From Dokdonia sp. (lineage in GTDB: Bacteria; Bacteroidota; Bacteroidia; Flavobacteriales; Flavobacteriaceae), in contig JAHDIF010000003.1 of assembly GCA_020630915.1 (NCBI GenBank), positions 248,001-312,000 on the forward strand: a stretch of DNA of 64,000 bases, written 5' to 3'. Positions 3,626-62,437 of the stretch are shown here, piece after piece. The translations under genes and the position numbers were made by a program. The stretch's first letter is position 1. Every line of letters begins with the position of its first letter. Under the pieces are notes generated by a model. The model searched no databases. It was not told where the DNA came from and saw only the letters and a list, made by a program, of their open reading frames with translations.

Positions 3626-3639
3626 GCTTTCGCGAAAGC
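3626..3639. repeat. Dispersed palindrome GCTTTCGCGAAAGC, copy 1
   Basis: Perfect 14-bp palindrome, intergenic, flanked T/A so it extends to 16 bp. It ends 19 bp before the ytxJ -7 box. Confidence 0.95.
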
Positions 3640-3658
3640 ATACTCAAAAACATTCGAC

Positions 3659-3666
3659 TACCTTTG
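3659..3666 (+). promoter_or_regulatory. -7 promoter box (TACCTTTG) of ytxJ
   Basis: TACCTTTG matches the Bacteroidota -7 consensus TAnnTTTG, 15 bp before the ATG at 3681. No TTG is present about 20 bp upstream; the end of the palindrome lies there instead. Confidence 0.55.
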
Positions 3667-3680
3667 TAAAAAAGAACGCT

Positions 3681-4073
3681 ATGGGATTATTTGATAAGGT
3701 ATTTGGTAAAGGAACGCAAGAGCCCAAAGAAGCGCGTGTACTACCTTGGAAACATCTTACTTCATTAGATCAGTTGGATCAAATTACGAAGGATTCTAAG
3801 TCTAAGCCTGTCGCTATTTTTAAGCATAGTACAACTTGTGGAATCAGTAGGATGGTACTACGTGGGCTAGAAGCAGATTACAATATAGATACGTCTCAAT
3901 TAGATTTTTATTACCTAGATCTTAAAGCCTACCGAAACATCTCTAATGAGATTGCTGCACGTTTTCAAGTGTGGCATGAAAGTCCTCAAATGATTCTTAT
4001 TAAAAATGGGATGGCTGTGTATAATGCGAGCCACAGCGCTGTAAATGTATTGGGACTTAAAGAAAAAATCTAA
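3681..4073 (+). CDS. ytxJ: Bacillithiol-system redox protein of the YtxJ type
   Basis: A 130-residue thioredoxin-fold protein of the monothiol bacilliredoxin-like YtxJ family, expected to act on bacillithiol-mixed disulfides in the cytoplasm. The key segment is FKHSTTCGISRMVLRG, a beta strand followed by a CGIS (CxxS-type) active site with one thiol. The ESPQMILIKNG segment supplies the cis-Pro and edge strand. The open frame extends upstream to 3612 but would then run through the palindrome and the promoter, so I chose the ATG at 3681 (MGLFDKVFGKG). Bacillithiol is the usual low-molecular-weight thiol of many Bacteroidota. Its 3' end overlaps the convergent small gene by four bases. Confidence 0.85.
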   Translation: MGLFDKVFGKGTQEPKEARVLPWKHLTSLDQLDQITKDSKSKPVAIFKHSTTCGISRMVLRGLEADYNIDTSQLDFYYLDLKAYRNISNEIAARFQVWHESPQMILIKNGMAVYNASHSAVNVLGLKEKI

Positions 4074-4234
4074 GAGTTATTTGCATCACTCACCTTGCAG
4101 GTTACCCAATACCTGTAGGCAATAATAGCCAGCTGCCATTTTTTTGCTTTGCTTAGATCTAAACGTCTTTTACTAAAAGAGGGGAGTAGTATCTTATTTA
4201 ATCTGGCTAATGTCGTGAAAAGCAATCTTTGCAT
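4070..4234 (-). CDS. Short conserved protein (54 aa), function unknown
   Basis: Starting at the ATG at 4234, the product begins MQRLLFTTLARLNKILLPSF and continues with a basic segment, LDLSKAKKWQLAIIAYRYWVT. From memory, similar 45-60-residue proteins with an LNKxxLPS...KAxKxQLAIIxxRxxVT pattern occur widely in Flavobacteriaceae, often mislabelled SsrA-binding protein. I therefore think it is real despite its size. It is amphipathic and positively charged. A longer frame up to 4261 is possible. It ends in a four-base tail-to-tail overlap with ytxJ. No function can be assigned. Confidence 0.6.
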   Translation of the reverse strand: MQRLLFTTLARLNKILLPSFSKRRLDLSKAKKWQLAIIAYRYWVTCKVSDANNS

Positions 4235-4285
4235 ATAGCAAACATATAAAACCTTTGGCAATTATGACCAGTCTAAGTTTACCTC

Positions 4286-5470
4286 TTAGAGTTTTGAGTT
4301 GAGGATAATAGTTTTGAGTCTTTGCTTTAGGTCTTCTCCCACATCATATACCATCTGTTCATTGGTAGGGAAGGGGATCGCTCTATTACGAGTGTATCCT
4401 AATAAATCATCATCTAAAGCGCGTCTATCACCATCGTAAGTAGCATAATAATGTTCGAATACAAATTCACTAGCAAGTGGGAATGCCTTGATAAGTTGCC
4501 CTGTTTTTTTTGAGTTGTACCTAACTTGACCTATTATATTTACTGCTTTAGACTGTAAAGACTCAAAATACTGGCAGGTGACATCTATAAATTTGTCTAC
4601 TTCAATTTTTTCTCCATCTTCATCTAGAACGTACTCTCCTTCTTTGTCTTTCAGGTATTCGGTCCCGTCTTTGATACTCTTTTCTTTGATTAACTCTCTT
4701 TCATTAATGCGCTCTGGAGAAATATTTATTTCTCTTAATGACACATCCATCACATAGTCATAGTTTATTCCTTCTTGTGGAGTACTATGATAGACCTTCC
4801 AGAAGTCATTAAGACCGTATGTAGAGAAGTCTAACAAATCGTCTTGTAATGTTCTTGGAATAATCACATTTGAGTCATTATATAGTGCTACTTCTATAAA
4901 GTCTGTTCCTTTAAGATGTGTATTTTCAAGTAGTGCGGCTACCTCTTTATAATTAGGCGAGAGTGACTGTACACGTTCTAAATTTCTATAGATATCCCTA
5001 TACTCTTTTTTTGATTTAGCTACTTCTAGATTAGTTGTTGCCTCTGCATAAAGATGTTCTGTAAGTTGTTCTTTATATGAAATAAGCTCATCATCGTAGT
5101 TTTTAATATCGAATACGGCCTCTCTTGATGGATCGGTTAATCTTAACGGAAGTAGAGGTTTAATACTTTGCTGTCTCTTGTTAAGATCTTGATATAACCT
5201 ATAAATTTCATCTAGGCCGTTAGGATTTCCTTCTTTAGCTAAAAATTTAATTCTTTGAAGATCTCTTGTGGTAGCTTTCGCGAAAGCTTCTTCTAATAAT
5301 AAGATGTGTGATTGTCCTTTTTTCTTAGAAGGGTTTTTACGTAATTTATCTATAGAGGTATATATGGCATCGTCGTAGTTACCATTTAACAACGATGTAG
5401 TAGACTTTTTAACCGAAGAACAGCTTGTAAGACAAGCAATAACAAATAGTAAAGAATATAGATGCTTCAT
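4286..5470 (-). CDS. Predicted lipoprotein, 394 aa, function unknown
   Basis: The N-terminus MKHLYSLLFVIACLTSCSS is a lipoprotein signal with lipobox LTSC (Cys16). The mature part is mainly charged helix (residues ~30-180, helical repeats) followed by a mixed region with VMDVSLREINISPERINERE and a C-terminal segment around YYATYDGDRRALDDDLLGYTRN. I do not recognise the family. The palindrome at 5274-5287 encodes AFAKA at about residues 62-66, inside a helix. It stands alone between the small gene at 4070 and a long non-coding region, so context gives no clue. Confidence 0.85.
   Translation of the reverse strand: MKHLYSLLFVIACLTSCSSVKKSTTSLLNGNYDDAIYTSIDKLRKNPSKKKGQSHILLLEEAFAKATTRDLQRIKFLAKEGNPNGLDEIYRLYQDLNKRQQSIKPLLPLRLTDPSREAVFDIKNYDDELISYKEQLTEHLYAEATTNLEVAKSKKEYRDIYRNLERVQSLSPNYKEVAALLENTHLKGTDFIEVALYNDSNVIIPRTLQDDLLDFSTYGLNDFWKVYHSTPQEGINYDYVMDVSLREINISPERINERELIKEKSIKDGTEYLKDKEGEYVLDEDGEKIEVDKFIDVTCQYFESLQSKAVNIIGQVRYNSKKTGQLIKAFPLASEFVFEHYYATYDGDRRALDDDLLGYTRNRAIPFPTNEQMVYDVGEDLKQRLKTIILNSKL
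5274..5287. repeat. Dispersed palindrome, copy 2 (AFAKA frame)
   Basis: Perfect GCTTTCGCGAAAGC inside the lipoprotein gene; encodes AFAKA. Confidence 0.95.
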
Positions 5471-6349: not shown

Positions 6350-8632
6350 TTAATTTTTTAATTGGATGACTACAACACCGTTTTTACCTTCTTTACCATA
6401 ACCATCTAAAGCTGCTTTTCCTTTTAAAACGTTTACACTTTCAATTTCATCGGGAGTAAGATCTTTAATTTGATCCTTTGAGACTTTCTCGCCATTAAGA
6501 TAATATAGAGGCTCTTTATCATTGTTATCAGACCTAAAGTTAAAATGAGTTGTGTAACCATCTTTTTCTGAGTCTTTAAGTTTTTTCTTCATTTCCTTTC
6601 TCCTAGCTTTGAGTTCTTCTTTCATCTCTTTTCTTTTTTCATCCATTTGCTCACGCATTTCTTCACCACGACCTTTCCTTTGAGATTTCATTTCTTCCTT
6701 GAGGGCTTCTAGCTCTTCTCTTCTTTTGTCTCTTTCTACAGTGGCTTCTTCTCTTTGCTCATCTAATTCCTTGCGACGTTCTTGCATTCGCTTTTCTCGT
6801 ACTTTTTCCCACTCATCAATACCCATAGCAGCCTTCGCGCTATTACCTCCAACTTGTACTCCAAAAGCACCTTTACTAGTACGCGAAATAATAATTGTAC
6901 CTATAGGTGTATCACTAGCAATGCGATTATTTGCTGTATTACCAGTTACATTATCCACCGCTTTTATAGAGATACTTGTAATTTCTCCTGCATTGTTAAA
7001 GTTTATATTGCTATATGAAAAAGTCACATCGTACTCTTTTTTAAGTTGTACCACCAGGGCATCTAGTTGCTCTTTTGTATAATCTTTTGTGATTTTTACG
7101 CGGAAGGGATCACTGTCAACGTTTTGTGTAACCAGTTGTAATCCTCCTAGTAAAGAAGCGGGTTCCATCTCTAAGGCATCATCATTTATATATAGCCCTT
7201 TTGAAGAACTGCGCATTTCAAACCCTTTTGGACCTAATTCCTTTAATTGAATTACAGAACCTGGTAAATACTGAAATTGAATACCTTGAGAAACAGAATT
7301 TTTGTCATTAATCCCTAAAATTTGATGCCATTCGGGAGTATTCTTAAACTTTGTCTTTACTTGATACGACGTGATTTCTCCTTTGTTGTCTCGTTTTATG
7401 TCGTGAATATCAATTAAGGCATCTGGATGATTTTCTTTAAAGTAAATCTCTAAAGCCTCAATTTGAGTATCTGCTGTCGTATGATTGATCACAAAGACGG
7501 GATGCTGTGATTCTTGTGTTTTGCTTACGAGTACAGGGGTATTCCCTGTATTAGTATTATCGGAATCCTTGTCGATACTATTTGATTTAGCACTGTCGGG
7601 ATCTATTTCAGTTCTAGTAACAAGGGTTTTATCAGATGTATTTTCTTTTATAGGTTGGGAGTTTGAAACCTTAATTAAATTACTTTTAGAATTTAAGGTT
7701 CCTGAGTCTGCTTTCGCGAAAGCGGTTTCCTCAACTCCTGCTACTTCTTGATACTTTATGACTTCTTTTACATTAAAGCTATACATAAATAGCGCTAAAA
7801 GAGGAAGAATAGCTCCCAGTTTGAATAGGTTACGTCTACGTGACGTTTCTTTGTTTAACATAACGATTCGTTTTTTGATTAATGAATGATAAAATTGATT
7901 CGTAAGCGCTGGTCGTAACGCGGTTGTTGAGACCTTAACAAGCGTATATTGATATGCCTTAGAAGAATGAACAGCCTGTAATGCACCAGAGTCTGCAAGA
8001 AATTCTAAGTTTTGTTCTAAGCTTTTTTTGTAAAACCAAGCCAATGGATTTACCCATTGAAAGGCAAGTACTACCTGCGTAAGCAATACATCTATGGTGT
8101 GCAGTTGACTTGCGTGCACTTTTTCATGAGCTATAATCATTTGTAATTCTTCCTGCGTGTGAAGTGCCGGATTGTAGCATATGTATCTAAAAAAGGAAAA
8201 AGGAGTCATAGTATCTGCAATCTGTACATATGTAAATTTGCCTACGGTATTACTCGGATATTTAGTTAGTAATGAATAAAGTGAATATAATTGTACAAGC
8301 AATCGTCCTATCATAAAGCTTACGCCTACACCATAAATGACTAGCGCAACTTTCGCCCAATTGATCACAAACGCTTTTTCTTCTAAAGCTGTTTCTAGAA
8401 GTATAGGCACAAAATTATCTGTATCCATAACCGTATCAGAAATGACGGGTATATCTATGTAAATGGTTTTTGTAAACTCTATAAAAGGCAAAATGAGTGC
8501 AGCTATAATGCCTGCCAGTAAGTAATGTCTATTAGCAGCATAAAAAGTATCCTTTTGAAGTATAGCCTGATACAACACATAAAATAGCGAGAGTATCGCA
8601 GTACTTTTTACAAGGGTGATTAGGATGTCCAT
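6350..8632 (-). CDS. BlaR1-type M56 membrane metallopeptidase with TonB-plug-like tail
   Basis: A 760-residue membrane protein. The N-terminal ~300 residues hold four or five membrane segments and a zinc-protease site HEKVH at 169-173, with the third ligand in the EFLAD segment about 40 residues later, as in BlaR1/MecR1 sensors. Residues ~300-380 are Ser/Thr/Asp-rich linker. Residues ~600-690 are an extremely charged KR/E coiled coil (KEMKEELKARRKEMKKKL). The last 50 residues (YYLNGEKVSKDQIKDLTPDEIESVNVLKGKAALDGYG) copy the pattern of a TonB-receptor plug. There is no beta-lactam-sensing transpeptidase domain. It lies 55 bp after the BlaI-like repressor and presumably cleaves it or signals to it. 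The palindrome at 7710-7723 encodes AFAKA in the linker. Confidence 0.9.
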   Translation of the reverse strand: MDILITLVKSTAILSLFYVLYQAILQKDTFYAANRHYLLAGIIAALILPFIEFTKTIYIDIPVISDTVMDTDNFVPILLETALEEKAFVINWAKVALVIYGVGVSFMIGRLLVQLYSLYSLLTKYPSNTVGKFTYVQIADTMTPFSFFRYICYNPALHTQEELQMIIAHEKVHASQLHTIDVLLTQVVLAFQWVNPLAWFYKKSLEQNLEFLADSGALQAVHSSKAYQYTLVKVSTTALRPALTNQFYHSLIKKRIVMLNKETSRRRNLFKLGAILPLLALFMYSFNVKEVIKYQEVAGVEETAFAKADSGTLNSKSNLIKVSNSQPIKENTSDKTLVTRTEIDPDSAKSNSIDKDSDNTNTGNTPVLVSKTQESQHPVFVINHTTADTQIEALEIYFKENHPDALIDIHDIKRDNKGEITSYQVKTKFKNTPEWHQILGINDKNSVSQGIQFQYLPGSVIQLKELGPKGFEMRSSSKGLYINDDALEMEPASLLGGLQLVTQNVDSDPFRVKITKDYTKEQLDALVVQLKKEYDVTFSYSNINFNNAGEITSISIKAVDNVTGNTANNRIASDTPIGTIIISRTSKGAFGVQVGGNSAKAAMGIDEWEKVREKRMQERRKELDEQREEATVERDKRREELEALKEEMKSQRKGRGEEMREQMDEKRKEMKEELKARRKEMKKKLKDSEKDGYTTHFNFRSDNNDKEPLYYLNGEKVSKDQIKDLTPDEIESVNVLKGKAALDGYGKEGKNGVVVIQLKN
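7710..7723. repeat. Dispersed palindrome, copy 3 (AFAKA frame)
   Basis: Perfect GCTTTCGCGAAAGC in the periplasmic linker of the BlaR1-like gene. Confidence 0.95.
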
Positions 8633-10306: not shown

Positions 10307-11584
10307 ATGCGGGAAGATTTTTTACATTACGTCTGGAAATTTAAGAAGTTCGCTTTCGCGAAAGCGCACACAACCACAAATCAAGCGATCACCTTACATT
10401 CCGTTGGGCAGCACAATCACGGTGCAGGTCCAGATTTTTTTAATGCTAGATTGTCGCTTGATGATCAAGAATGGGCTGGGAATGTAGAGATACACTTAAA
10501 ATCTTCTGACTGGTATGTACATGGCCACGAGACCGATGAAGCCTATGATAATGTCATACTTCACGTGGTGTGGGATCACGATGTAGATATTTTTAGAGCA
10601 GATAATACGCCATTGCCCACATTAGCTCTTAAAGATTATGTTTCTCAAGAACAGTTAACCGGCTACAAAAACCTTTTTGCCCACCAAGACAGGCGATGGA
10701 TTCCCTGTCAAAATGAACTTCCAGAAGTGCCTTCTCATATATGGAATCACTGGCAAGAACGCTTATATTTAGAACGCCTGCAACATAAAACCCAACGCAT
10801 TAATATCTTGCTTGAGGAGTCCAACAACGATTGGGAGCACGTACTTTTTATAATGCTTGCGAGAAATTTTGGCACGAAAGTAAATGGCGCTTCATTTGAG
10901 AGTTTGGCAAAGGCTATTGATTTTAGTGTGATACGCAAGTGTGCCCAAGAACCTTTTAGGCTAGAGGCATTGTTATTAGGAGCTGGTGGATTGTTACCAG
11001 AGGAGAGCGTAGACAGTTATGCCTTACAACTAGAAGGTGAGTATGAGTTTGTGCAACATAAGTTTACGTTGAATAGGGATGGCGTATTACCCATTCAGTT
11101 TTTTAAGTTGCGGCCGGCTAATTTTCCTACCATACGGTTATCTCAACTAGCCATGTTGTATCACAGGGTCCCAGGTTTATTTCGGCGGTTGATGAAGGAA
11201 TCGTCACTGGAAGGTATGTATGAGATTCTTTTGGTACAGGCATCTGCCTATTGGGACACGCATTTTAACTTCGGTAAATCACAAACCAAACGTTCTAAAA
11301 AACTTACGAAAGCATTTATAGATTTACTGCTTATTAATACGGTTATTCCCCTCAAGTTTGCCTATAATCAACATCTTGGTAAAGATGATCACGAAGAGCT
11401 ATTACTACTCATCGAACACATCAAACCAGAGAAGAATACGATAGTTCAAAAGTATGATGATTTGAGGTCTAAGGCTACTTCGGCTATACAATCACAGGCG
11501 CTTATTCAATTAAAAAATGAATACTGTTCTAAACATCAATGTTTACAGTGCAGTGTGGGCAATTGGTTGATGGGGAAGGGTTGA
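10307..11584 (+). CDS. DUF2851 family protein
   Basis: A 425-residue cytoplasmic protein matching the DUF2851 pattern: MREDFLHYVWKFKKF at the start, HNHGAGPDFFNARL and WAGNVEIHLKSSDWYVHGH near residues 35-80, and a C-terminal pair CSKHQCLQC. The conserved acidic and histidine residues in the first 100 positions have the flavour of a nuclease core, but no activity is established. It probably shares the transcript of the upstream enzyme (27-bp gap, no terminator between). The palindrome encodes FAFAKAHT at residues 15-22, in place of a short variable link after the first helix. Confidence 0.9.
   Translation: MREDFLHYVWKFKKFAFAKAHTTTNQAITLHSVGQHNHGAGPDFFNARLSLDDQEWAGNVEIHLKSSDWYVHGHETDEAYDNVILHVVWDHDVDIFRADNTPLPTLALKDYVSQEQLTGYKNLFAHQDRRWIPCQNELPEVPSHIWNHWQERLYLERLQHKTQRINILLEESNNDWEHVLFIMLARNFGTKVNGASFESLAKAIDFSVIRKCAQEPFRLEALLLGAGGLLPEESVDSYALQLEGEYEFVQHKFTLNRDGVLPIQFFKLRPANFPTIRLSQLAMLYHRVPGLFRRLMKESSLEGMYEILLVQASAYWDTHFNFGKSQTKRSKKLTKAFIDLLLINTVIPLKFAYNQHLGKDDHEELLLLIEHIKPEKNTIVQKYDDLRSKATSAIQSQALIQLKNEYCSKHQCLQCSVGNWLMGKG
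10352..10365. repeat. Dispersed palindrome, copy 4 (AFAKA frame)
   Basis: Perfect GCTTTCGCGAAAGC near the start of the DUF2851 gene, flanked C/G so it extends to 16 bp. Confidence 0.95.
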
Positions 11585-12726: not shown

Positions 12727-13305
12727 TTAGACTTTATTTTGAAATCTTCTAATCGCCTCAAACATATGTCTACATCTAGCTTTATAAGCAGCACTTCCAG
12801 AGGCATAGCCATCTTCCATAATGCGTTGTAATTCAGGATGTACCCAATCTATCTCTGTGCCTAGCCAGAATAAAGAGGTCATTGTATAAGCTTTTACGGC
12901 TACTTTTTGCTCGGTAATCATCCAGTCAAAGCCTGCTTCTACGAGGCGTTCTTTGTGGGTAGGAGTGAGAAATTTTCGCGTAAGCGGGTCCTGTATTTTA
13001 TAATAAGATAGTGCGAGATATTCGGTGATTTTGGCTACGGGTCGCAAGGCCGAATCCTGATATACGGTATTCATTTTTTCTGTAAAAACATCCAGATAAG
13101 GCAGAAGGATAGACAAGTCTTGCTTGCACACAAACTCACATAACCAACCTGCACGATTGGAACGCTTATCATCTACCAGAAATAGGATGTCTAAAGCGTG
13201 AGGGAATAGGGCAGGATTGTCCAGTACGAGTTGGGCATAATACGCGCGTTTCTCACGACTATGATTTACATAGTTTAAATGCTCATAGAGTTCCCGTTGT
13301 GTCAC
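12727..13305 (-). CDS. Helical-repeat protein, 192 aa, function unknown
   Basis: An all-helical protein with HEAT/ARM-like spacing (LDNPALFPHALDILFLVDDKRSNRAGWLCEFVCK). It starts at a GTG (13305); the next Met is about 80 residues in, too late to be plausible. Similar proteins are often carried in flavobacterial genomes as hypothetical or mislabelled adenylosuccinate lyase, but no catalytic motif is visible. It contains a T-variant of the dispersed palindrome (12974-12985), read DPLTRKFL. Divergent from the haem-binding gene by 37 bp. Confidence 0.75.
   Translation of the reverse strand: MTQRELYEHLNYVNHSREKRAYYAQLVLDNPALFPHALDILFLVDDKRSNRAGWLCEFVCKQDLSILLPYLDVFTEKMNTVYQDSALRPVAKITEYLALSYYKIQDPLTRKFLTPTHKERLVEAGFDWMITEQKVAVKAYTMTSLFWLGTEIDWVHPELQRIMEDGYASGSAAYKARCRHMFEAIRRFQNKV
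12974..12985. repeat. T-variant of the dispersed palindrome
   Basis: TTTCGCGTAAGC, the same one-base variant as at 1209; read LTRK on the coding strand. Confidence 0.6.
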
Positions 13306-15517: not shown

Positions 15518-15531
15518 GCTTTCGCGAAAGC
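15518..15531. repeat. Dispersed palindrome, copy 5 (intergenic)
   Basis: Perfect GCTTTCGCGAAAGC between trmH and the small gene at 15594; it lies about 40 bp upstream of that gene's promoter. Confidence 0.95.
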
Positions 15532-19375: not shown

Positions 19376-19942
19376 TTATAAGGCATCTAAGAATACTTTC
19401 ATAGCCTTACCACGGTGACCTATTTTGTTCTTAAGAGGCAACGCCATTTGTGCAAAAGTGGCTTCATATCCTTCAGGTTGAAAGATAGGATCGTACCCAA
19501 ATCCTCCATCACCCATACGTTCTTTAGTAATCTTTCCTTTACAAATACCTTCAAAGGTTGTGATGGTATTTGCTTTCGCGAAAGCGATAACTGTTTTAAA
19601 CTGGGCGGTACGCTCAGATCGCGTTGCAAGTGCAATAAGAAGTTTGTTCATATTGTCTTGCGCATTCTTTTGTGGACCTGCATATCGAGCCGAATACACT
19701 CCGGGAGCACCATCAAGTGCTAACACTTCAAGTCCTGTGTCATCTGCAAAGCAATCATAGCCGAAATTCTCTTTTACATAGCGCGCTTTTAGAATAGCAT
19801 TACCCTCAATGGTAGGAGCATCTTCTACAATATCTTCTGTACAGCCTATATCTTTAAGTCCTTTAATCTTAATGTGATCAGGCACTAACGATTGTACTTC
19901 TTTAAGTTTGTTTGGGTTGTTGGTGGCAAATACGAGTGTCAT
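19376..19942 (-). CDS. rdgB: Non-canonical purine NTP pyrophosphatase RdgB/HAM1
   Basis: 188 residues. It hydrolyses ITP, dITP and XTP to monophosphates and so keeps them out of DNA and RNA. Family motifs: TNNPNKLKEVQ at the N-terminus, the DDTGLEVLALDGAPGVYSARYAG active-site region, and GDGGFGYDPIFQPEGY plus HRGKAM at the end. The palindrome at 19572-19585 encodes VIAFAKANTITT, the surface strand-turn before FEGICKG. It is the downstream partner of the VTT gene with no gap (19942/19943), probably one transcript. Confidence 0.95.
   Translation of the reverse strand: MTLVFATNNPNKLKEVQSLVPDHIKIKGLKDIGCTEDIVEDAPTIEGNAILKARYVKENFGYDCFADDTGLEVLALDGAPGVYSARYAGPQKNAQDNMNKLLIALATRSERTAQFKTVIAFAKANTITTFEGICKGKITKERMGDGGFGYDPIFQPEGYEATFAQMALPLKNKIGHRGKAMKVFLDAL
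19572..19585. repeat. Dispersed palindrome, copy 6 (AFAKA frame)
   Basis: Perfect GCTTTCGCGAAAGC inside rdgB. Confidence 0.95.
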
Positions 19943-21194: not shown

Positions 21195-22064
21195 ATGATC
21201 TATATGATATCAAAAGAGCAATTTGATTTTGAAGTACAAGGCATCATACAAAATGCAATTAGAGAAGATGTAGGAGATGGAGATCATAGTAGTCTGGCCT
21301 GTATTCCAGAGACGGCAACGGGTAAAGCAAAACTACTTGTGAAAGATGAAGGGATTCTTGCTGGGGTTGCTTTCGCGAAAGCGGTATTTGCCTACGTAGA
21401 TCCTGCGCTAGAAATCGAAGTGCTTCTTGATGACGGCGCTTCAGTAAAGTACGGGGATATTGCTTTTTATGTATCTGGTTCTTCACAATCCATCTTAAAA
21501 GCCGAACGACTCGTTCTAAATGCGATGCAACGAATGAGTGCTATTGCAACAAAAACTGCTTTTTTTGTAAACTTACTAGAAGGAACAGGCACTAAAATAC
21601 TAGACACACGTAAGACCACTCCGGGATTAAGAGCCCTAGAAAAATGGGCGGTAAAAATAGGTGGCGGAGAGAACCATAGGTTTGCATTGTATGATATGAT
21701 AATGCTTAAGGATAATCATATTGATTTTGCAGGAGGTATTGCTCAAGCGATATCACAAACCGTTGCGTATCTCGATAGAACAGATCGTGACCTCAGAATT
21801 ATTGTAGAAGCTCGCGATCTTACAGAAATTAAAGAAATCCTGCAAAGTCACGAGCATGTATATCGTATTCTTATTGACAACTTTAATTATGAAGATACTC
21901 GCAAGGCTGTAGAGTTAATTGGTGACAAGTGCCTTACAGAGTCCTCTGGCGGTATAAATGAAGAAACGATAAGAGATTATGCACTATGTGGAGTAGACTA
22001 TATTTCTAGTGGCGCTCTCACACACTCTGTTTATAATTTAGATCTAAGTCTTAAAGCAGTTTAA
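21195..22064 (+). CDS. nadC: Quinolinate phosphoribosyltransferase (nicotinate-nucleotide pyrophosphorylase)
   Basis: 289 residues when started at the ATG at 21195; a second ATG nine bases on is equally plausible. The enzyme converts quinolinate and PRPP to nicotinate mononucleotide in de novo NAD synthesis. Motifs: REDVGDGDHSS, the TRKTTPGLRALEKWAVKIGGGENHRFALYDMIMLKDNHI block, ARDLTE, ESSGGI and GVDYISSGALTHS. The palindrome at 21369-21382 encodes GVAFAKAVFAYVDP, where other NadC proteins usually have a similar hydrophobic/Lys helix. Overlaps the next gene by one base (TAATG), so it is co-transcribed. Confidence 0.96.
   Translation: MIYMISKEQFDFEVQGIIQNAIREDVGDGDHSSLACIPETATGKAKLLVKDEGILAGVAFAKAVFAYVDPALEIEVLLDDGASVKYGDIAFYVSGSSQSILKAERLVLNAMQRMSAIATKTAFFVNLLEGTGTKILDTRKTTPGLRALEKWAVKIGGGENHRFALYDMIMLKDNHIDFAGGIAQAISQTVAYLDRTDRDLRIIVEARDLTEIKEILQSHEHVYRILIDNFNYEDTRKAVELIGDKCLTESSGGINEETIRDYALCGVDYISSGALTHSVYNLDLSLKAV
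21369..21382. repeat. Dispersed palindrome, copy 7 (AFAKA frame)
   Basis: Perfect GCTTTCGCGAAAGC inside nadC. Confidence 0.95.
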
Positions 22065-24123: not shown

Positions 24124-24137
24124 GCTTTCGCGAAAGC
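24124..24137. repeat. Dispersed palindrome, copy 8 (intergenic)
   Basis: Perfect GCTTTCGCGAAAGC, C/G-flanked, between the terminator and the priA -7 box, centred 18-19 bp before it. Confidence 0.95.
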
Positions 24138-38260: not shown

Positions 38261-39826
38261 ATGAGCACCCTTGTCCAAATAAACGTTCTCCCGCATCAGG
38301 CAGAAGATGATGATTATATCGCTGAGAAAGCTTTCGCGAAAGCAAGACTACGCGCAGACGATGTACGAGAGTGGGACATTAGAAAACGCTCTATAGATGC
38401 TCGTAAATCGCCAGTAAAAATCTCACTACAGATTGAGTTTTGGAAAGTAGGAGAGGAGCGTAGCAGTTTACCACCTTTTACACCACAAAAAGTACACAAC
38501 GAACAAGAAATAGCAATTATAGGCGCAGGTCCAGCAGGATTATTCGCGGGTTTACGTGCTGTAGAAGCCGGTTTGAAACCTATTATTTTTGAGCGTGGTA
38601 AGGATGTGCGTGCACGCAGGCGTGATCTTGCGGCTATTAATAAAGAGCATATTGTAGATCCAGATTCTAATTACTGCTTTGGAGAAGGCGGTGCTGGTAC
38701 CTATTCTGATGGAAAGCTATACACGCGTTCCAAAAAACGAGGCAATGTGCTCAAGGCGATGGAATGGTTTGTTCATTTTGGTGCAGTAGAAGACATATTG
38801 GTAGATGCTCATCCGCATATTGGCACCAATAAATTGCCGAAGATTATCACTACGATGCGTGAAGCGATTATTGCCGCTGGCGGCGAAGTACGGTTTGGTG
38901 CTAAACTCACCGATATTAAAATAACGGAACAACAGATTCAGAAGATACAGATTAACGATACCGATTGGCTCGCTTTTGATAATGTAATTCTAGCGACAGG
39001 TCACAGTGCGCGCGATATATTTTATTTACTGCACAAACGCAAGGTAAAGATAGAGGCAAAGCCCTTTGCGATAGGCGTTCGTATCGAGCACCAGCAGGAT
39101 CTTATTGATCATATACAATATCACGGCGATAGTGATAATCCTAATTTGCCACCAGCTTCTTATAGTTTGGTGCAACAAGTAGATGGCTTAGGCGTTTATT
39201 CTTTTTGTATGTGTCCTGGCGGAATTATAGCGCCTTGTGCAACGGCTCAAGAAGAAGTAGTGACTAATGGTTGGAGTCCGTCTAAGCGGGATAATCCCTA
39301 TTCTAATTCAGGAATTGTAGTAAGCGTGACGCCACAGGATTTACCCAATTATAAAGAAGGAGATCCTTTTGTATGTCTTGATTTTCAGAAATCTGTAGAG
39401 CGGGCTTGTTGGGAAGCTGCGGGCAAAACACAAGCGGTGCCTGCGCAGCGTATGCAGGATTTTGTAAATGGCCGCGTGTCTAAAAACTTCCCTAAAACCT
39501 CCTATCAACCTGGAATTGTGTCTGTAGATCTTAATAATGTATTGCCACCGCTTATCGCGAAAAGGCTCAAGAAAGCCTTTATAAGTTTTGGTAGGAAGAT
39601 GAAAGGGTATCTCACTAATAATGCGGTTTTACACGCTCCAGAAAGTCGCACTTCTTCCCCAGTGTTGATTCCGCGAAATCCAGAAACATTAGAACATATC
39701 GAAATAAAAGGACTCTATCCTTGCGCCGAAGGAGCTGGCTATGCTGGCGGAATTATCTCCGCGGCTATAGATGGAATGAACTGCGTAGATAGGGTTGTGG
39801 AGAAGTATGCTTTCGCGCAAGCTTAA
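38261..39826 (+). CDS. FAD-dependent oxidoreductase (COG2509 type)
   Basis: 521 residues. The nucleotide-binding GxGxxG lies in IAIIGAGPAGLFAGLRAVEAGLKPIIFERG (about residues 86-115) after an unusual N-terminal ~80-residue domain. NYCFGEGGAGTYSDGKLYTRSKKRG, VILATGHSARDIFYLLHKR and YPCAEGAGYAGGIISAAIDGMNC are the COG2509 family blocks. Substrate unknown. A perfect palindrome near the 5' end encodes EKAFAKARL. The C-terminus ends YAFAQA*, a one-mismatch copy. Confidence 0.88.
   Translation: MSTLVQINVLPHQAEDDDYIAEKAFAKARLRADDVREWDIRKRSIDARKSPVKISLQIEFWKVGEERSSLPPFTPQKVHNEQEIAIIGAGPAGLFAGLRAVEAGLKPIIFERGKDVRARRRDLAAINKEHIVDPDSNYCFGEGGAGTYSDGKLYTRSKKRGNVLKAMEWFVHFGAVEDILVDAHPHIGTNKLPKIITTMREAIIAAGGEVRFGAKLTDIKITEQQIQKIQINDTDWLAFDNVILATGHSARDIFYLLHKRKVKIEAKPFAIGVRIEHQQDLIDHIQYHGDSDNPNLPPASYSLVQQVDGLGVYSFCMCPGGIIAPCATAQEEVVTNGWSPSKRDNPYSNSGIVVSVTPQDLPNYKEGDPFVCLDFQKSVERACWEAAGKTQAVPAQRMQDFVNGRVSKNFPKTSYQPGIVSVDLNNVLPPLIAKRLKKAFISFGRKMKGYLTNNAVLHAPESRTSSPVLIPRNPETLEHIEIKGLYPCAEGAGYAGGIISAAIDGMNCVDRVVEKYAFAQA
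38330..38343. repeat. Dispersed palindrome, copy 12 (AFAKA frame)
   Basis: Perfect GCTTTCGCGAAAGC near the start of the oxidoreductase gene, 1.2 kb after copy 11, the closest perfect pair. Confidence 0.95.
39809..39822. repeat. One-mismatch copy of the palindrome
   Basis: GCTTTCGCGCAAGC, one change (A to C) from the consensus, at the very end of the oxidoreductase gene (AFAQA, then stop). Confidence 0.7.
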
Positions 39827-39966: not shown

Positions 39967-42216
<2,250 letters not shown>

Positions 42217-42359: not shown

Positions 42360-43982
<1,623 letters not shown>

Positions 43983-47035: not shown

Positions 47036-47049
47036 GCTTTCGCGAAAGC
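47036..47049. repeat. Dispersed palindrome, copy 15 (intergenic)
   Basis: Perfect GCTTTCGCGAAAGC, T/A-flanked, ends 12 bp before the -7 box of the helicase gene. Confidence 0.95.
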
Positions 47050-49975: not shown

Positions 49976-49989
49976 GCTTTCGCGAAAGC
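49976..49989. repeat. Dispersed palindrome, copy 16 (intergenic)
   Basis: Perfect GCTTTCGCGAAAGC, C/G-right-flanked, 54 bp before the dipeptidase start and just past the terminator's T-run of the 50057 gene. Confidence 0.95.
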
Positions 49990-51587: not shown

Positions 51588-52388
51588 ATGGAAGCACACG
51601 AAATAGATTATGAGATCTTAGGGGAAGAAATGCAATATGTAGAAATAGAACTAGACCCGCAAGAAGGGGTTATTGCAGAGGCGGGAAGTTTTATGATGAT
51701 GGAAGAGGGTATACGTATGGATACAATTTTTGGCGACGGATCTCAAAAAGATAACTCGGTAATGGGTAAAATCTTTGGAGCAGGTAAACGATTACTTACG
51801 GGGGAAAGTTTATTTATGACTGCTTTTTATAATGATGTACAAGGAAAGAAAAAAGTAAGTTTTGCATCTCCTTATCCAGGAAAGATAATTCCGATTGATT
51901 TGGCTCAGAACGGAGGTAAATTCATTTGTCAGAAAGATGCGTTTCTTTGTGCTGCAAAGGGAGTATCCGTGGGTATAGAATTTTCGCGTAAGCTAGGCAG
52001 GGGGTTATTTGGTGGAGAAGGGTTTATTATGCAAAAACTAGAGGGAGATGGTGTTGCCTTTGTGCACGCAGGAGGAACAACTCTCAAAAAAGAGCTAGCT
52101 CCAGGTGAGCGCTTAAAAGTTGATACGGGTTGTATTATAGGTTTTGATCATACAGTAGATTATAACATAGAATTTGTCGGGGGAATCAAGAATACCATTT
52201 TTGGTGGTGAAGGATTGTTCTTTGCAACCTTGTCTGGTCCTGGTACTGTTTATATACAGTCGTTGCCTTTTAGTAGGCTGGCAAATAGAGTCCTTGCACT
52301 AGCTCCTAGAGGAGGTGGAAAATCTAAGGGTGAAGGCTCTATTCTAGGCGGGATAGGTGATTTATTAGATGGTGATAATGGATTTTAA
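51588..52388 (+). CDS. AIM24 / TIGR00266 family protein
   Basis: 266 residues. The TIGR00266 pattern: VEIELDPQEGVIAEAGSFMMMEEGIRMDTIFGDGS, GAGKRLLTGESLFMTAFYND, KVSFASPYPGKIIPIDLAQNGGKFICQKDAFLCAAKGVSVGIEFSRKLGRGLFGGEGFIMQKLEGDG, GLFFATLSGPGTVYIQSLPFSRLANRV. The fold is a Gly-rich beta roll related to the mitochondrial AIM24 protein; role unknown. A T-variant palindrome at 51982-51993 is read FSRKL. Usual length. Confidence 0.92.
   Translation: MEAHEIDYEILGEEMQYVEIELDPQEGVIAEAGSFMMMEEGIRMDTIFGDGSQKDNSVMGKIFGAGKRLLTGESLFMTAFYNDVQGKKKVSFASPYPGKIIPIDLAQNGGKFICQKDAFLCAAKGVSVGIEFSRKLGRGLFGGEGFIMQKLEGDGVAFVHAGGTTLKKELAPGERLKVDTGCIIGFDHTVDYNIEFVGGIKNTIFGGEGLFFATLSGPGTVYIQSLPFSRLANRVLALAPRGGGKSKGEGSILGGIGDLLDGDNGF
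51982..51993. repeat. T-variant of the dispersed palindrome
   Basis: TTTCGCGTAAGC inside the AIM24-type gene, read FSRK. Confidence 0.6.
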
Positions 52389-54291: not shown

Positions 54292-54305
54292 GCTTTCGCG
54301 AAAGC
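54292..54305. repeat. Dispersed palindrome, copy 17 (intergenic)
   Basis: Perfect GCTTTCGCGAAAGC, C/G-flanked to 16 bp, upstream of the DUF2141 gene and next to the inverted repeat at 54308. Confidence 0.95.
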
Positions 54306-57912: not shown

Positions 57913-58669
57913 GTACGGATTGATAGGGAAAGATATTGGTTATTCCTTTTCTAGAAGTTTTTTTAAATCAAAATTTGAAAAAGAAAGGATTAATGCAAGC
58001 TATCAAAATTTTGATTGTGTTGATTATAATGAGATAAGGGAGGTGCTCAAAGACAAGAGAATAAAGGGTTTTAATGTTACTATACCATATAAGGAAAAAG
58101 TGATATCCTTAATTGATGAATTGGATATTGCTGCTCTTGAAATAGGTGCAGTCAATACGATTAAACGTTTGCCAGATGGGCGTTTAAAAGGATTTAATAC
58201 AGATTATATAGGTTTTACCGCCTCCCTTTTGGATAGTGAGGATGGGAATCTTTTTAAAAAGATTTTAGAGGGAGGCAGTATCAAACCCCAAGCCCTTATC
58301 CTTGGAACAGGAGGAGCTTCTAAGGCAGTGGTTTATGCTCTTGAGAAGATGGGAGTGAAGTGTCAATATATTTCGCGAAAGCGATCTAAAAGAGCTATTA
58401 CTTACAATGATATAGACGAAGAACTCATTAAAAATAATTGGCTTTTTGTAAACTGCACACCTTTAGGCACTTTTCCCGATGTTGACCTATTTCCAGATAT
58501 TCCTTATGAGTATTTAGATCTGTCACATATTGTATATGATCTTATCTATAACCCACCAGAAACTACTTTTTTGCGTAAGGCAAGAGCACAAGGCGCTTCG
58601 ACTTTTAATGGGTTAGCTATGCTGGAAGGGCAAGCCCTAGCTTCATGGGAAATTTGGCAGTCTTTATAA
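57884..58669 (+). CDS. aroE: Shikimate dehydrogenase
   Basis: 261 residues, normal. It reduces 3-dehydroshikimate with NADPH in aromatic amino acid synthesis. Motifs: YGLIGKDIGYSFSRSFF, GFNVTIPYKEKVI, EIGAVNTIKR, GFNTDYIGF, the dinucleotide site ALILGTGGASKAVVYALEKMG, the NPPETTFLRKARAQGASTFNGLAMLEGQA end. A near-palindrome (58371-58382) encodes ISRKR. The start at the ATG at 57884 overlaps the upstream gene; the GTG at 57905 is an alternative. Confidence 0.95.
   Translation: MEKKQERVDKYGLIGKDIGYSFSRSFFKSKFEKERINASYQNFDCVDYNEIREVLKDKRIKGFNVTIPYKEKVISLIDELDIAALEIGAVNTIKRLPDGRLKGFNTDYIGFTASLLDSEDGNLFKKILEGGSIKPQALILGTGGASKAVVYALEKMGVKCQYISRKRSKRAITYNDIDEELIKNNWLFVNCTPLGTFPDVDLFPDIPYEYLDLSHIVYDLIYNPPETTFLRKARAQGASTFNGLAMLEGQALASWEIWQSL
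58371..58382. repeat. Partial copy of the palindrome (TTTCGCGAAAGC)
   Basis: Twelve of 14 bases, the left GC replaced by TA, in aroE, read SRKR. It fills the large gap between copies 17 and 18. Confidence 0.65.
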
Positions 58670-58738: not shown

Positions 58739-60727
58739 ATGTCCGAAGAGAATAGACCTAAAGAAGAAATAGCTACTACAAACAGTGAATCTCACGAAGA
58801 AGAGGTGTTACACACTTCTGAAAAGGGTCTCGCCGAAGAAATTGAAGCACTGTCGCAAGAGGCAGAGAGTGTTGCCTTACCCTCTGAAGAAGAAGTGGAG
58901 GCAGAGATCATATTAGAGACTGAGAGTACGACTAATTTTAATGAAGAAGAAAAGGACACTACTGCGATAGAAGATAATACACCAAAAGAAATTGAAAGAA
59001 AGGATTATCCATCTATGTCTATTGAAGAGTTAATTTCAGAGCTTGAGAATTTGGTGAAGAATGAGCGAGTTCAGGATATTAAAAAGCACGTAGATGAGAT
59101 TAAGACGGCTATTGACACAAAATTTGACGCAGAACAGGAAAAGGCAAAAGGAGAATTTCTTGAACAAGGAGGAAATGTAATTGATTTTAGATTTTTCTCA
59201 CCATTCAAAAAGTCTTTTAATGAAGTATACTACGAGTATAGAAATAAAAGATCAACATACTACCAAAATAAGCAGAAAGATCAAAAGGCCAATTTAGCTT
59301 TTAGACAAAATCTTATTGAAGAATTAAAAATTCTAAGAGAAGAGCTTGGTGGTGCTGAGAGTGTAAATAGTACATTTAATAAATTTAGAGAAATACAGGA
59401 GCGATGGAATAATGCGGGTAACATACCTAGAGATAGATATAACCTGGTGTGGAACAACTATTATCATCACGTAGATAGCTTTTATGAATTATTGCATTTA
59501 AACAGAGCATTTAGAGACAAACACTTTTCAGATAATCTTGCTCAGAAAATGCAACTCATAGAAAGAGCTGAAGAGCTTGATGATGAGCCTAATATTGGGA
59601 AGGCTTTTAAAGAGCTTCAATTACTGCATCGTATGTGGAAAGAGGAAATAGGACCTGTTTCTAAAGAGTACAGTGATGCTATTTGGGATCGGTTTGGACT
59701 TGCCACAAAGAAAATACACGATAAAAGAGATGCTCATTTTAAAGAAGTTGAGAAAGGATGGGATCAAAACCTTGTCGTAAAAAATGAGATTATACAAAAG
59801 ATCCAAGAAGTTGCAAATAGCACTATAGACTCTCATAAAGTAATACAACAAAAGATAAAGGAGGTAGAAAGCTTACGAGAAAGCTTTTTTAAGGCTGGTA
59901 AAGTGCCTAACGAGGTTAACGAAGCAACTTGGGCTTCCTTTAAAGATGCCGTAAGAAGCTTTAACCATAAGAAAAATGGTTTTTATAAATCACAAAAGCA
60001 AGAACAGTACGACAATCTAACTAAGAAAAAAGCGCTTATACAGATTGCAAACGAGCATAAGGATAGTGATGATCTTACAGGTACAATGGATGTCATGAAA
60101 AAAATCCAGGCAGATTGGAAGAAAATAGGCCACGTACCAAGAAAGGATAGTGATAAGATCTGGAAAGAGTTTAAAGACGCCTGTAATCATTTCTTTGATA
60201 GATTGCACGATTCAAAAAAACAATCAAATGCAGAGCAACAGGAAGCGTTAGTAAAAAAACAAGAACTTCTTGCTTCACTAGACTCTATTAAATTAGAAGG
60301 TGAGCATAGCGATAAGTTACAAATGATCACCTCTAAGATAAGTGAGTGGAAATCTATAGGAAAAGTACCCTACGCAAAGAAAAAGATTGATGAACGGTTT
60401 AATAAGGCACTAGATGGACTTTTTAAACAACTGGATATAGATAAGAAAGAGGTAGAAATGATTAAGTATGAGAACAGACTTGAGAGTATGGGAGGTTCTG
60501 ATACTCGAGATCTATCTAAAGAACAATTTTTTTTAACTAAGAAAGTACAAGAAGTAAAAGCCGAAATTAATCAGCTCGAAAATAACTTAGGTTTCTTCCA
60601 ACACGTAAAGGATGATAATCCTATGGTTGTAGATGTTAAGAAAAATATTGAAAAGCATAGAGGAGAACTAGAAGTATGGCAATCTAAATTAAGAAAGCTT
60701 AAAACTTTTATTAAAAATCAAGAATAA
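58739..60727 (+). CDS. DUF349 domain protein
   Basis: 662 residues from the ATG at 58739 (MSEENRPKEEIATT). After an acidic low-complexity N-terminus come several DUF349 units of about 75 residues with the pattern W(K/N)xxGxVPRxxxxxxWxxF (for example FNKFREIQERWNNAGNIPRDRYNLVWNNYYHHVD; MKKIQADWKKIGHVPRKDSDKIWKEF; KISEWKSIGKVPYAKKKIDERF). It ends in a coiled coil. All-helical; function unknown, possibly RNA or membrane-associated. Ends at a strong terminator. Confidence 0.92.
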   Translation: MSEENRPKEEIATTNSESHEEEVLHTSEKGLAEEIEALSQEAESVALPSEEEVEAEIILETESTTNFNEEEKDTTAIEDNTPKEIERKDYPSMSIEELISELENLVKNERVQDIKKHVDEIKTAIDTKFDAEQEKAKGEFLEQGGNVIDFRFFSPFKKSFNEVYYEYRNKRSTYYQNKQKDQKANLAFRQNLIEELKILREELGGAESVNSTFNKFREIQERWNNAGNIPRDRYNLVWNNYYHHVDSFYELLHLNRAFRDKHFSDNLAQKMQLIERAEELDDEPNIGKAFKELQLLHRMWKEEIGPVSKEYSDAIWDRFGLATKKIHDKRDAHFKEVEKGWDQNLVVKNEIIQKIQEVANSTIDSHKVIQQKIKEVESLRESFFKAGKVPNEVNEATWASFKDAVRSFNHKKNGFYKSQKQEQYDNLTKKKALIQIANEHKDSDDLTGTMDVMKKIQADWKKIGHVPRKDSDKIWKEFKDACNHFFDRLHDSKKQSNAEQQEALVKKQELLASLDSIKLEGEHSDKLQMITSKISEWKSIGKVPYAKKKIDERFNKALDGLFKQLDIDKKEVEMIKYENRLESMGGSDTRDLSKEQFFLTKKVQEVKAEINQLENNLGFFQHVKDDNPMVVDVKKNIEKHRGELEVWQSKLRKLKTFIKNQE

Positions 60728-60750
60728 ATAGAATTCAATCTCTATTTCTA

Positions 60751-60780: not shown

Positions 60781-60903
60781 ATACCCTTATACCTACAATT
60801 GAGCCTAATAAAATGACATCTGAGGCTGTAAAATGTAAAAACTTGTAACAAATTAAAATGTGTAACGTCTTTTAAGTATCAATCAATAAATCAATCAAAT
60901 ATT

Positions 60904-61041
60904 ATGAAAAGTTCTAACGAAAATTACAGCTCAAACAATTACAAATCAAGGCGTAACGTAGCGCTTGGTATTTATGTAATACTTACAACTACTTTAATAA
61001 GTGCCTACACAATGGTTCAATTATTTCAAGTAGTACAATAA
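60904..61041 (+). CDS. Small single-span membrane protein, 45 aa
   Basis: ATG at 60904, stop at 61039-61041. The product has a polar N-terminus (MKSSNENYSSNNYKSRRN), one membrane segment (VALGIYVILTTTLISAYTMV) and a short tail. It resembles the 42-aa product at 5824-5952 in size, layout and the LGIY start of the membrane segment. It is followed after one base by an excellent terminator, so it is probably expressed alone. Confidence 0.65.
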   Translation: MKSSNENYSSNNYKSRRNVALGIYVILTTTLISAYTMVQLFQVVQ

Positions 61042-61042
61042 A

Positions 61043-61075
61043 AAAATCTGCGAGCGATCGCAGATTTTCTTTCTT
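61043..61075 (+). terminator. Terminator after the 45-aa gene
   Basis: AAAATCTGCGA pairs with TCGCAGATTTT (11 bp, tetraloop GCGA), then CTTTCTTC. Confidence 0.9.
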
Positions 61076-61179
61076 CTTCATAGCAGATTTTTAGCACTTT
61101 TGAGATAAAAGTTGAAGACTTATAAGCTGTAAGTCGGAACATATGTTTTCTCCTTACATTTGTTTTAAATTATTTTATT

Positions 61180-61692
61180 ATGAAGAATGCTCACAAAGGA
61201 GGTAAACTAATTTTTGTTGCGGTTTTATTTTTTTCGCTTTTCGCGAAAGCGCAACAAGAAACAACCACGTATTATTTTATAAGACACGCAGAGAAGGATA
61301 GAAGTGATAGCTCTAATAGAAATCCGCACTTAACGGAACAAGGTCTGAATAGAGCACAAGATTGGTCTACGATCTTGAGAGATGTGCAGCTAGAGGCCGT
61401 GTACAGTACGGATTATAACAGAACAAAAGAGACCGCTCAACCTACGGCCGAAAGTCATACACTTAATGTGCAAATGTACAATCCTAGAGAGCTTTATGAT
61501 GCTACTTTTGTCAAGGCTACTAATGGAAAAACTGTTCTAGTTGTTGGCCATAGTAATACCACTCCATCTTTTGTAAACAAGGTCTTAGGAGAGAAAAAAT
61601 ATGAAGCTATAGATGATTCTAACAATGGAAATTTATATATAGTAACCATTATTGGAGATAAAAAATCTGTACAATTGCTACACTTTAATTAG
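61180..61692 (+). CDS. Secreted histidine-phosphatase-family protein
   Basis: 170 residues with a signal peptide MKNAHKGGKLIFVAVLFFSLFAKAQ. Active site: FIRHAEKDRSD (RHG-type, here RHA), second His in VVGHSNTTPSF, catalytic Glu in LEAVYSTDYNRTKETAQPTAE. The phosphorylated substrate is unknown. The signal's cleavage site AKA|QQ is encoded by an off-register palindrome relative (61239-61248), a neat example of the DNA motif fitted into a functional peptide. Convergent 8-bp overlap with the next gene. Confidence 0.88.
   Translation: MKNAHKGGKLIFVAVLFFSLFAKAQQETTTYYFIRHAEKDRSDSSNRNPHLTEQGLNRAQDWSTILRDVQLEAVYSTDYNRTKETAQPTAESHTLNVQMYNPRELYDATFVKATNGKTVLVVGHSNTTPSFVNKVLGEKKYEAIDDSNNGNLYIVTIIGDKKSVQLLHFN
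61239..61248. repeat. Core of the palindrome (TTTCGCGAAA)
   Basis: The 10-bp core is intact, but an extra T shifts the left arm (GCTTTTCGCGAAAGC). It codes the end of a signal peptide. Confidence 0.65.
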
Positions 61693-62437
61693 TAGCAGCA
61701 GTTATTGTTACATTTTCTAAATCAATGGTAGACAGTAAGTTTAGTTCATTATTTTCAAATAATATATCTAGGCTATCCAGAGGTGGGTACTGGTTTTTGG
61801 GCTTGTAGTTTTTGTAATCTACAATTCGCACCCCATTTACAATGCGCTCATTGTAGGCCTCTCTAAAACGTGTACCACCTTCGGCAGTTTGATAATTGTA
61901 GGCAAGGTAGTCTACATTGTATGTTTCTTTATGAATCCAGTATAAGTATTCATCTTTAAAATCGTCGCCTCCACCTTCTTGTTTAAAAGTAACCTTAATA
62001 CGATAATACGGTTGATTTTTAACCGTAGTCTCATCTAAAAATGTCTTTTTTACCGCAGGATCATTCAATCCATAGGGTAGTACAGAAAAGTAATGTACGG
62101 AGTTGATACTATTCCCATAGCGGGTTTTCATACTATCTGGAACTGTAATGAGTTCGCTTTCGCGAAAGCGTATAAACTCCCCATTTTCATTTAGAACATC
62201 TTGTTGCACCTGACATTCTTTATCTGTACAGCGCTCTAGAGTTCGTAAGTTTTTAGTTCTTGTAGCTCTATAATAGTAATCTCTAAACTTAAAGTGTATG
62301 CTCGAGTTTGCAATGGTATTTCCTCCAGCCACAGCTATTGCTTGGTCCACAATTTCTTGGGCTGTGTGAACATCTTCATTTTTACAGGATACAGTTAAAA
62401 ATAAAGTAGATAAAATCAGCAATTTAAGCACACGCAT
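61685..62437 (-). CDS. DUF6503-like lipoprotein (first of a tandem pair)
   Basis: 250 residues. Lipobox MRVLKLLILSTLFLTVSC (Cys18). VHTAQEIVDQAIAVAGGNTIANSSIHFKFRDYYYRATRTKNLRTLERC, then LPYGLNDPAVKKTFLDE and a GGDDFKDEYLYWIHKETYNVDYLAYNYQT stretch. I link it to DUF6503 from memory. The fold looks like a LolA/outer-membrane lipoprotein-binding beta sheet. A perfect palindrome (62156-62169) is read RFRESE. Four bases separate it from the next gene. Confidence 0.75.
   Translation of the reverse strand: MRVLKLLILSTLFLTVSCKNEDVHTAQEIVDQAIAVAGGNTIANSSIHFKFRDYYYRATRTKNLRTLERCTDKECQVQQDVLNENGEFIRFRESELITVPDSMKTRYGNSINSVHYFSVLPYGLNDPAVKKTFLDETTVKNQPYYRIKVTFKQEGGGDDFKDEYLYWIHKETYNVDYLAYNYQTAEGGTRFREAYNERIVNGVRIVDYKNYKPKNQYPPLDSLDILFENNELNLLSTIDLENVTITAATN
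62156..62169. repeat. Dispersed palindrome, copy 18 (FRES frame)
   Basis: Perfect GCTTTCGCGAAAGC, C/G-flanked, the only perfect copy read as FRES. Confidence 0.95.

Follow-up and report, generated by a model that had tools for sequence, protein, structure and literature searches.

A 64,000-nucleotide stretch of the genome of a Dokdonia sp. (contig C11, positions 248001-312000; hereafter the window, the genome being labelled G000) contains 18 exact copies of GCTTTCGCGAAAGC, a perfect palindrome of 14 bp. Pattern counting over the whole genome (2.97 Mb in 18 contigs) gave 685 exact copies, or one per 4.3 kb, and the control pattern, which is the motif read backwards, gave none. The sequence-only reading of the window had proposed a functional motif spread through the genome, and these counts bear it out, as the copies are neither at the level of a Markov model nor confined to 64 kb. 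We tentatively propose that the palindrome is a mark of self DNA for preferential uptake and/or recombination in natural transformation. Such a mark would work like the DNA uptake sequences (DUS) of Neisseriaceae and the uptake signal sequences (USS) of Pasteurellaceae but would be palindromic and independent of pili; we regard this reading as plausible without calling it probable.

All 18 starts given in the sequence-only reading were confirmed exactly; the GC content, estimated there at about 38%, was measured as 36.5%. When up to two mismatches were allowed, the window contained 22 matches versus 0.23 expected (100 shuffles), the additional ones being one copy with one mismatch (39809) and three with two (58369, 59871, 61237). 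The suggestion that the wide gaps hold near-copies was correct for the gap at 54-62 kb, in which the two-mismatch copies lie, but not for that at 10.4-15.5 kb, where nothing with two or fewer mismatches was found and only a half-degenerate relative is present at 12974. Approximately 16% of the genome was read as sequence, genome-wide figures are pattern counts, and open reading frames (ORFs) were called using a simple longest-ORF script. In 464 kb of G000 sequence there were 102 exact copies, for which a fourth-order Markov model predicts 0.003. The core was also pure: these 464 kb had only 14 copies with one mismatch beside the 102 exact ones, and in 400 kb of a second Dokdonia genome (G001) the numbers were 8 and 100.

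The excess over chance was approximately 30,000-fold for exact copies and 150-, 22-, 3- and 1.3-fold for copies with one, two, three and four mismatches. Exact copies in the hundreds, well beyond the chance level, and a steep, steady fall with mismatch number are both features of DUS/USS. As a yardstick, the excess of the Haemophilus and Neisseria sequences drops 92- and 82-fold from zero to one mismatch and 9- and 7-fold from one to two (PMC1939737). The 14-mer and 12-mer strings had no match in the open-licence literature searched, and the 10-mer matched only 10 papers with unrelated-looking titles. Further, open-licence literature on over-represented or palindromic motifs, searched with the group names, returned nothing on a Dokdonia palindrome.

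Architecture, placement and conservation of the palindrome

Centred on the strict 14-mer core, the symmetric element spans roughly 50-60 bp in all. The folded flanks preferred C at position -1 (52% in G000 and 90% in G001) and T at -3 and -4. Farther out, G and T prevailed in the arms and C was scarce, making up 8% at -18 to -13 in G000 and G001 alike, compared with a background of 18-19%; the C-poor arm faded to background past about -18 in G000 and past -24 to -30 in G001. The same edge bases were found in Nonlabens and in one genome of a third genus (G178), with C-poor arms that were strong in Nonlabens and weak in G178 (29 and 15 sites, respectively). Arm-to-arm matching beyond position -4 was at the shuffled level (scattered z up to 2.3), and in G001 the matching was slightly raised at -1 to -3 (z 2.2-2.6). 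Because the arms match no better than shuffled ones beyond -4, the element is a duplex site whose halves are independent of each other rather than a hairpin.

It is therefore extremely improbable that the palindrome is a repetitive mobile element, an RNA hairpin or a terminator, a reading that is already largely refuted. This reading accords with the palindromic form, with the third to 60% of copies that lie outside ORFs, and with convergent gaps being densest in G001 and Nonlabens, although not in G000. Nevertheless, no flanking sequence was common to the copies beyond composition and edge bases, differences between species were mostly point changes, and copies were found inside genes in all frames. 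An RNA hairpin or cruciform was rejected because the arms do not co-vary beyond -4, and a mobile repeat because of the missing arm pairing and the predominance of substitutions.

A minor, half-degenerate class keeps one half of the palindrome and has lost the outer GC of the other (GCTTNCGCGAAA without GC after it). We counted 28 such copies in the G000 stretches and 23 in those of G001, where about 0.05 of these 12-mers were expected by chance, and their strands were not biased (17 versus 11 and 13 versus 10). One-sided recognition, with a C-poor arm on one side only, had been considered on the basis of those half-degenerate copies whose fifth base is A (33 rows, among them orthologues); a pooled test of 49 copies did not support it (P = 0.41). 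Only C at -1 was one-sided in these copies (38/49 versus 10/49).

Outside the exact 14-mers, TCGCGA occurred 46 times in 464 kb of G000 (25.7 expected) and 32 times in 440 kb of G001 (20.3 expected), a small excess that near-copies can supply, and CGCG showed no enrichment apart from the 14-mer. Selection acts on the full 14-mer together with its flanks. Of the four candidates put forward in the sequence-only reading, a methylase or repair target containing TCGCGA is thus not supported and likeness to HIP1 remains only as a description, while an uptake-like sequence and a nucleoid-protein site survive. A strict 14-bp core with arms is far longer than the usual methylase site, and the copies are conserved one by one. 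We therefore consider a target of restriction-modification, methylation or mismatch repair, as proposed for HIP1, very improbable, even though the motif is a palindrome. HIP1 (GCGATCGC, cyanobacteria) is likewise a perfect palindrome iterated through the genome, but it has 8 bp and a methylase-linked model (PMC4390886), whereas the Dokdonia motif has 14 bp plus arms and its inner hexamer is not the enriched unit.

Copies were distributed through genes and gaps, as had been noted from the sequence: in the window, 12 of the 18 lie inside crudely called ORFs and six between them. Outside ORFs lay 33 of 96 copies in the G000 stretches (10.5% of bases) and 64 of 107 in G001 (12.7% of bases). The genic copies occurred in all frames, with frame 0, which reads AFAKA, favoured (39/63 in G000 and 25/43 in G001). 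In one gene, AFAKA in Dokdonia corresponds to other residues in other genera; thus, the amino-acid sequence here seems to be subordinate to the DNA motif. Site density in divergent gaps was 0.91, 1.10 and 0.26 per kb in G000, G001 and a Nonlabens genome (G223), respectively, versus 0.97, 1.87 and 1.50 in tandem gaps. A promoter or regulator site was rejected because divergent gaps were not enriched. Convergent gaps were densest in G001 (2.31 per kb, 11 sites) and Nonlabens (1.68, 4 sites), unlike in G000 (0.86).

The even spread described in the sequence-only reading was, if anything, understated, because spacing was more regular than random: its coefficients of variation were 0.72 and 0.74, and the lowest 0.1% of random values lies at about 0.745. 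No gap of less than 1 kb was found among 97 in the G000 stretches (20% expected), and only four among 99 were found in G001 (23% expected). Further, each of 20 sampled 20-kb stretches of a single-contig genome contained 1-7 copies. Motif-free gaps of 15-20 kb are nonetheless tolerated. In 240 kb of contig C11, the three widest gaps were occupied by polysaccharide genes, by a cluster with CHAT/TPR and T2SSF genes, and by an NB-ARC gene (10 of the encoded proteins were scanned). The T2SSF gene belongs to a region (stretch L021, 7244-14517; C11:107244-114517) in which CHAT/TPR and CHASE2 genes are its neighbours, and this is where the C11 stretches have their widest motif-free gap.

Between Dokdonia species the core was 97-99% identical and the far flanks 76-93%. 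At flank identities of 93, 87, 81 and 76%, exact copies were kept in 28/32, 30/33, 41/52 and 22/27 alignments, for which the neutral expectations are 0.44, 0.18, 0.10 and 0.03; these counts exclude counterparts that were missing, truncated, short or less than 60% identical, and overlapping pairs share sites between rows. Judging from these alignments, every copy appears to be kept individually by selection. In most of the copies that differed, the change amounted to a single substitution or a small number of them, with C to T and G to A frequent, and a few lay in stretches that did not align. Permissive positions combined with individual conservation are again found in uptake sequences, as DUS are described as lying at permissive positions and being conserved while their flanks diverge (PMC2397512).

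Conservation of position did not extend across genera. An orthologous place was available for 13 Nonlabens sites, none of which lay within 40 bp of the equivalent position in Dokdonia (three lay within 300 bp), and neither did any of three in G178. Within a genus, 12 of 24 G000 sites were common to other Dokdonia stretches and four of six G223 sites to other Nonlabens, counting only places inside the fetched stretches and taking BBFL7 loci as Nonlabens. As the sites stand at different places across genera, the word is common and its placement seemingly independent.

Distribution among genomes, islands and phages

All 18 Dokdonia genomes searched, G000 included, contained 369-905 copies, all 23 Nonlabens genomes 288-857, and the single genome of the third genus 408. 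In a sample of the family (299 genomes of 203 genera), five genomes had hundreds of copies (two Dokdonia, two Nonlabens and G178), 66 had 1-19 and 228 had none. The order was sampled with 296 genomes, in which the 15-mer CGCTTTCGCGAAAGC was sought; genomes outside the family had at most one copy per strand. A scan of named genomes returned at least 107 stretches; among the matches listed, Dokdonia and Nonlabens dominated, with single copies in scattered other taxa. The motif is thus sharply limited to three genera in the samples searched. In 420 kb of motif-poor family DNA we found only two copies with two or fewer mismatches, so that there was no sign of decayed remnants in these relatives. 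Nor was another dialect, defined as a 12-mer of three or more letters occurring four times, found when 20 other family members (18 genera) were examined over 20 kb apiece.

Copies were few in the rest of the family, and several of these were clustered. In one genome (G084), whose genus is otherwise almost devoid of the motif, 14 of 16 copies lay within 62 kb (contig C3, about 32-95 kb; L346-L349). This segment encodes RND efflux pumps, a multicopper oxidase and a P-type ATPase, that is, an island of the copper-resistance type, and carries the palindrome at near-host density. Further, a pair of copies exactly 933 bp apart recurs in at least six genera (including L096, L098, L099 and L100) and lies in an ORF of 405 aa, which belongs to an outer-membrane efflux family in G084. 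We interpret such clusters as islands that once resided in a host rich in the motif. The motif may accordingly serve as a label of DNA that has probably resided in these hosts.

A scan of viral contigs yielded at least 120 stretches, and among the matches listed 53 of 133 sites were in stretches below 45% GC. In 16 chosen contigs there was one copy per 3.8-11 kb of fetched sequence, a density that is biased upward because the contigs were found by the motif. Proteins were tested in five of them, and capsid, portal, terminase, primase, protease or tail families marked these as phages; two (L257 and L335) carried integrase genes and are hence temperate. In contrast, two named Nonlabens phages with no annotated integrase, which we take to be lytic, had no exact copy in 35.7 kb each, versus 7-8 at host density (the motif content of their host strain itself was unchecked). 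Flavobacterium phage 6H, a primase relative of one motif-bearing phage, also had no copy. Recently acquired DNA thus gave a mixed picture: the largest gaps, with their polysaccharide and defence-like genes, and the two Nonlabens phages are without copies, and temperate phages and the island have them.

Possible roles: self-DNA mark, chromosome organisation or recombination signal

The copies are conserved one by one, occupy permissive places, lose their excess as mismatches increase and are limited to a clade. These traits are hallmarks of uptake sequences (PMC2397512, PMC1939737), and together with transformation in the family and the self-preference of Riemerella columbina they make a mark of self DNA the best reading. 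Natural transformation of Flavobacteriaceae involves ComEC, DprA, ComF and RecA together with proteins that have no homology to known machinery (PMC8459023), and R. columbina prefers its own DNA (PMC7965970). In line with such a capacity, all 27 panel genomes have ComEC. The 14-mer would be the core of a two-fold symmetric double-stranded site read by one conserved DNA-binding protein, presumably acting as a dimer, of Dokdonia, Nonlabens and the further genus. DNA carrying the site would be recognised as self and be preferentially taken up and/or recombined during transformation, through a pilus-independent machinery as described in other Flavobacteriaceae. A fragment of a few kb would need one site, and a second copy within 1 kb would bring no gain. 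Copies would arise by point mutation in permissive places and then spread with the fragments that carry them, and mutated copies would be restored or purged. It is possible, on a more tentative footing still, that these three genera share a symmetric DNA receptor for such a pilus-independent palindromic mark in Bacteroidota, one dialect with differing placements.

The motif resembles DUS and USS in its hundreds of copies, clade specificity, steep mismatch fall, permissive positions, individual conservation and extended flank preferences. It differs in being palindromic with a symmetric footprint, in having almost no close pairs, in belonging to a different phylum and in occurring also in temperate phages. 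Its spacing is also wider, at approximately 4.3 kb compared with approximately 1 kb for USS (PMC7811141). The candidate machinery was searched in hand-picked panels of 26 or 27 genomes. Of 10 motif-rich genomes, 5 lacked the pilus-platform family T2SSF, and three of these 5 are single-contig; of 17 motif-poor genomes, 5 had it. Its occurrence within Dokdonia is patchy. Pilus-type uptake machinery, a feature of DUS/USS carriers, is therefore lacking in half of the motif-rich genomes tested. For this reason we do not file the motif as a DUS or USS but only as working like one.

Several observations weigh against a self-DNA mark. We know of no DUS or USS that is a palindrome, and the known ones use type IV pili, which fits poorly with the T2SSF result. 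No protein emerged as the reader; ComEC was found in all 27 panel genomes and separates no groups. Temperate phages and the copper-resistance island carry copies at near-host density, but DUS are reported to be absent from recently acquired genes (PMC2397512). The k-mer table given for Riemerella and F. johnsoniae contains only A-rich words (PMC7965970), and the precedent within the family is thus one without a known word. Finally, we found no report of Dokdonia transformation in the open-licence literature, a search that covered Dokdonia and not Nonlabens.

In trees of ComEC, ParB and PriA the motif-rich genera were not cleanly grouped; the ComEC clade takes in a motif-poor genome (G142), and Nonlabens, on a long branch, shifts between the trees. 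ComEC of G001 and G004 was only 53% identical, compared with 92% for PriA and 94% for ParB, and was least conserved in its N-terminal fifth (L355-L374). This divergence within Dokdonia is a lead only as a clue to the reader, no equally close motif-poor pair having been compared.

The main rival, which we consider unlikely but deserving of serious attention, is a chromosome-organising site. Here a homodimeric nucleoid or segregation protein from outside the ParB family would bind every few kb and structure, anchor or move the chromosome, and DNA long resident in the chromosome would acquire sites. The symmetry with independent halves, the regular spacing, the strict core and the absence of a promoter-type gap preference agree with this, as do the copies in every sampled stretch around a single-contig genome. 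It would also suit the presence of copies in the integrase-bearing phages and the island and their absence from the two Nonlabens phages. On the other hand, gaps of 15-20 kb are tolerated, and the sequence-specific organisers known to us number their sites in the tens, in many cases favouring the origin or terminus. Noc-binding sites and parS are 14-16-bp palindromes bound by dimers, with tens of copies or fewer, unlike the hundreds of the present motif. A ParB/Noc paralogue was rejected as the reader, as only one ParB_N protein was present in each of nine motif-rich genomes tested (9/9), which again speaks against a Noc-like organiser. The parS 14-mer used in our search, presumably the canonical one, was present in G000 and two Nonlabens genomes and not in the other 13 searched.

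A Chi-like recombination hotspot is improbable. In such a case an AddAB-type helicase-nuclease, or a break at the palindrome, would use the core, and the G/T-rich 5' arms would favour loading of recombinase on the 3' tail. Its appeal is that one copy per 4.3 kb is similar to the density of Chi in E. coli and that both 5' arms are G/T-rich and C-poor, as Chi is G/T-rich on its 5' side. However, Chi signals are short and oriented, and the Dokdonia motif is a 14-bp palindrome whose half-degenerate copies lack strand bias. RecC was absent from 27/27 panel genomes (the E. coli control was found), on which ground RecBCD-Chi was rejected; AddAB was left outside that search.

If the self-DNA mark is correct, sequence-specific DNA exchange would extend, with a different architecture, to a phylum that has no established uptake word in the literature searched. 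If the motif instead organises the chromosome, it would, to our knowledge, be an unusually dense sequence-specific mark. In either case, the reader protein could be captured with a 60-bp bait.

Individual copies and other features of the window

Three copies in the window read AFAKA: 5274..5287 within an ORF at 4286-5470 (-), 7710..7723 within a BlaR1/M56-like ORF at 6350-8632 (-), and 10352..10365 within an ORF at 10307-11584 (+). The copy at 3626..3639 lies within a weak TTG-start ORF (3612-4073) and is therefore possibly intergenic. That at 19572..19585, within an ORF at 19376-19942 (-), was exact in six of eight Dokdonia relatives with the gene in hand and had one mismatch in the other two. 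Similarly, the copy at 21369..21382, within an ORF at 21039-22064 (+), was exact in seven of eight relatives and had one mismatch in the eighth, and none was present there in G178 and five motif-poor genomes. Other genic copies are at 37108..37121 in a histidyl-tRNA synthetase ORF (36868-38247, +), 38330..38343 in an ORF at 38261-39826 (+), 41224..41237 in a peroxidase-family ORF (40009-42216, +), 43557..43570 in an ORF at 42360-43982 (+), and 62156..62169, which reads RFRES, in an ORF at 61685-62437 (-). Intergenic copies are at 15518..15531, 24124..24137 (24 bp upstream of the called start of a PriA ORF), 28825..28838, 47036..47049, 49976..49989 and 54292..54305.

The remaining copy, 32980..32993, reads LSRK within a CarboxypepD_reg/Plug ORF at 30662-33160 (-). 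This ORF combines a carboxypeptidase regulatory-like domain with a TonB-receptor plug and has a superficial likeness, by description only, to the outer-membrane protein that Riemerella requires for transformation (PMC8459023).

The one-mismatch copy occupies 39809..39822. Of the two-mismatch copies, those at 58369..58382 and 61237..61250 (both on the minus strand) are half-degenerate, the former with one half whole and the other without its outer two bases; the third is at 59871..59884. Possible half-degenerate relatives, GCTTACGCGAAA, are on the minus strand at 1209..1220, 12974..12985, 26497..26508 and 51982..51993; the first lies within a Clp ATPase ORF (914-3520), and a similar sequence is present in a G001 stretch (L057).

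A tandem array of ten 7-bp units (ACCCAAC) is located at 14613-14682, upstream of an ORF at 14776-15438. Further, a second inverted repeat around AGATTTCCGCCTTCGCGGAAATCTCA occurs in the window and in stretches L016-L035, with 12-mers that recur up to 12 times in 464 kb, and looks like a separate hairpin of the repetitive extragenic palindrome (REP) type.

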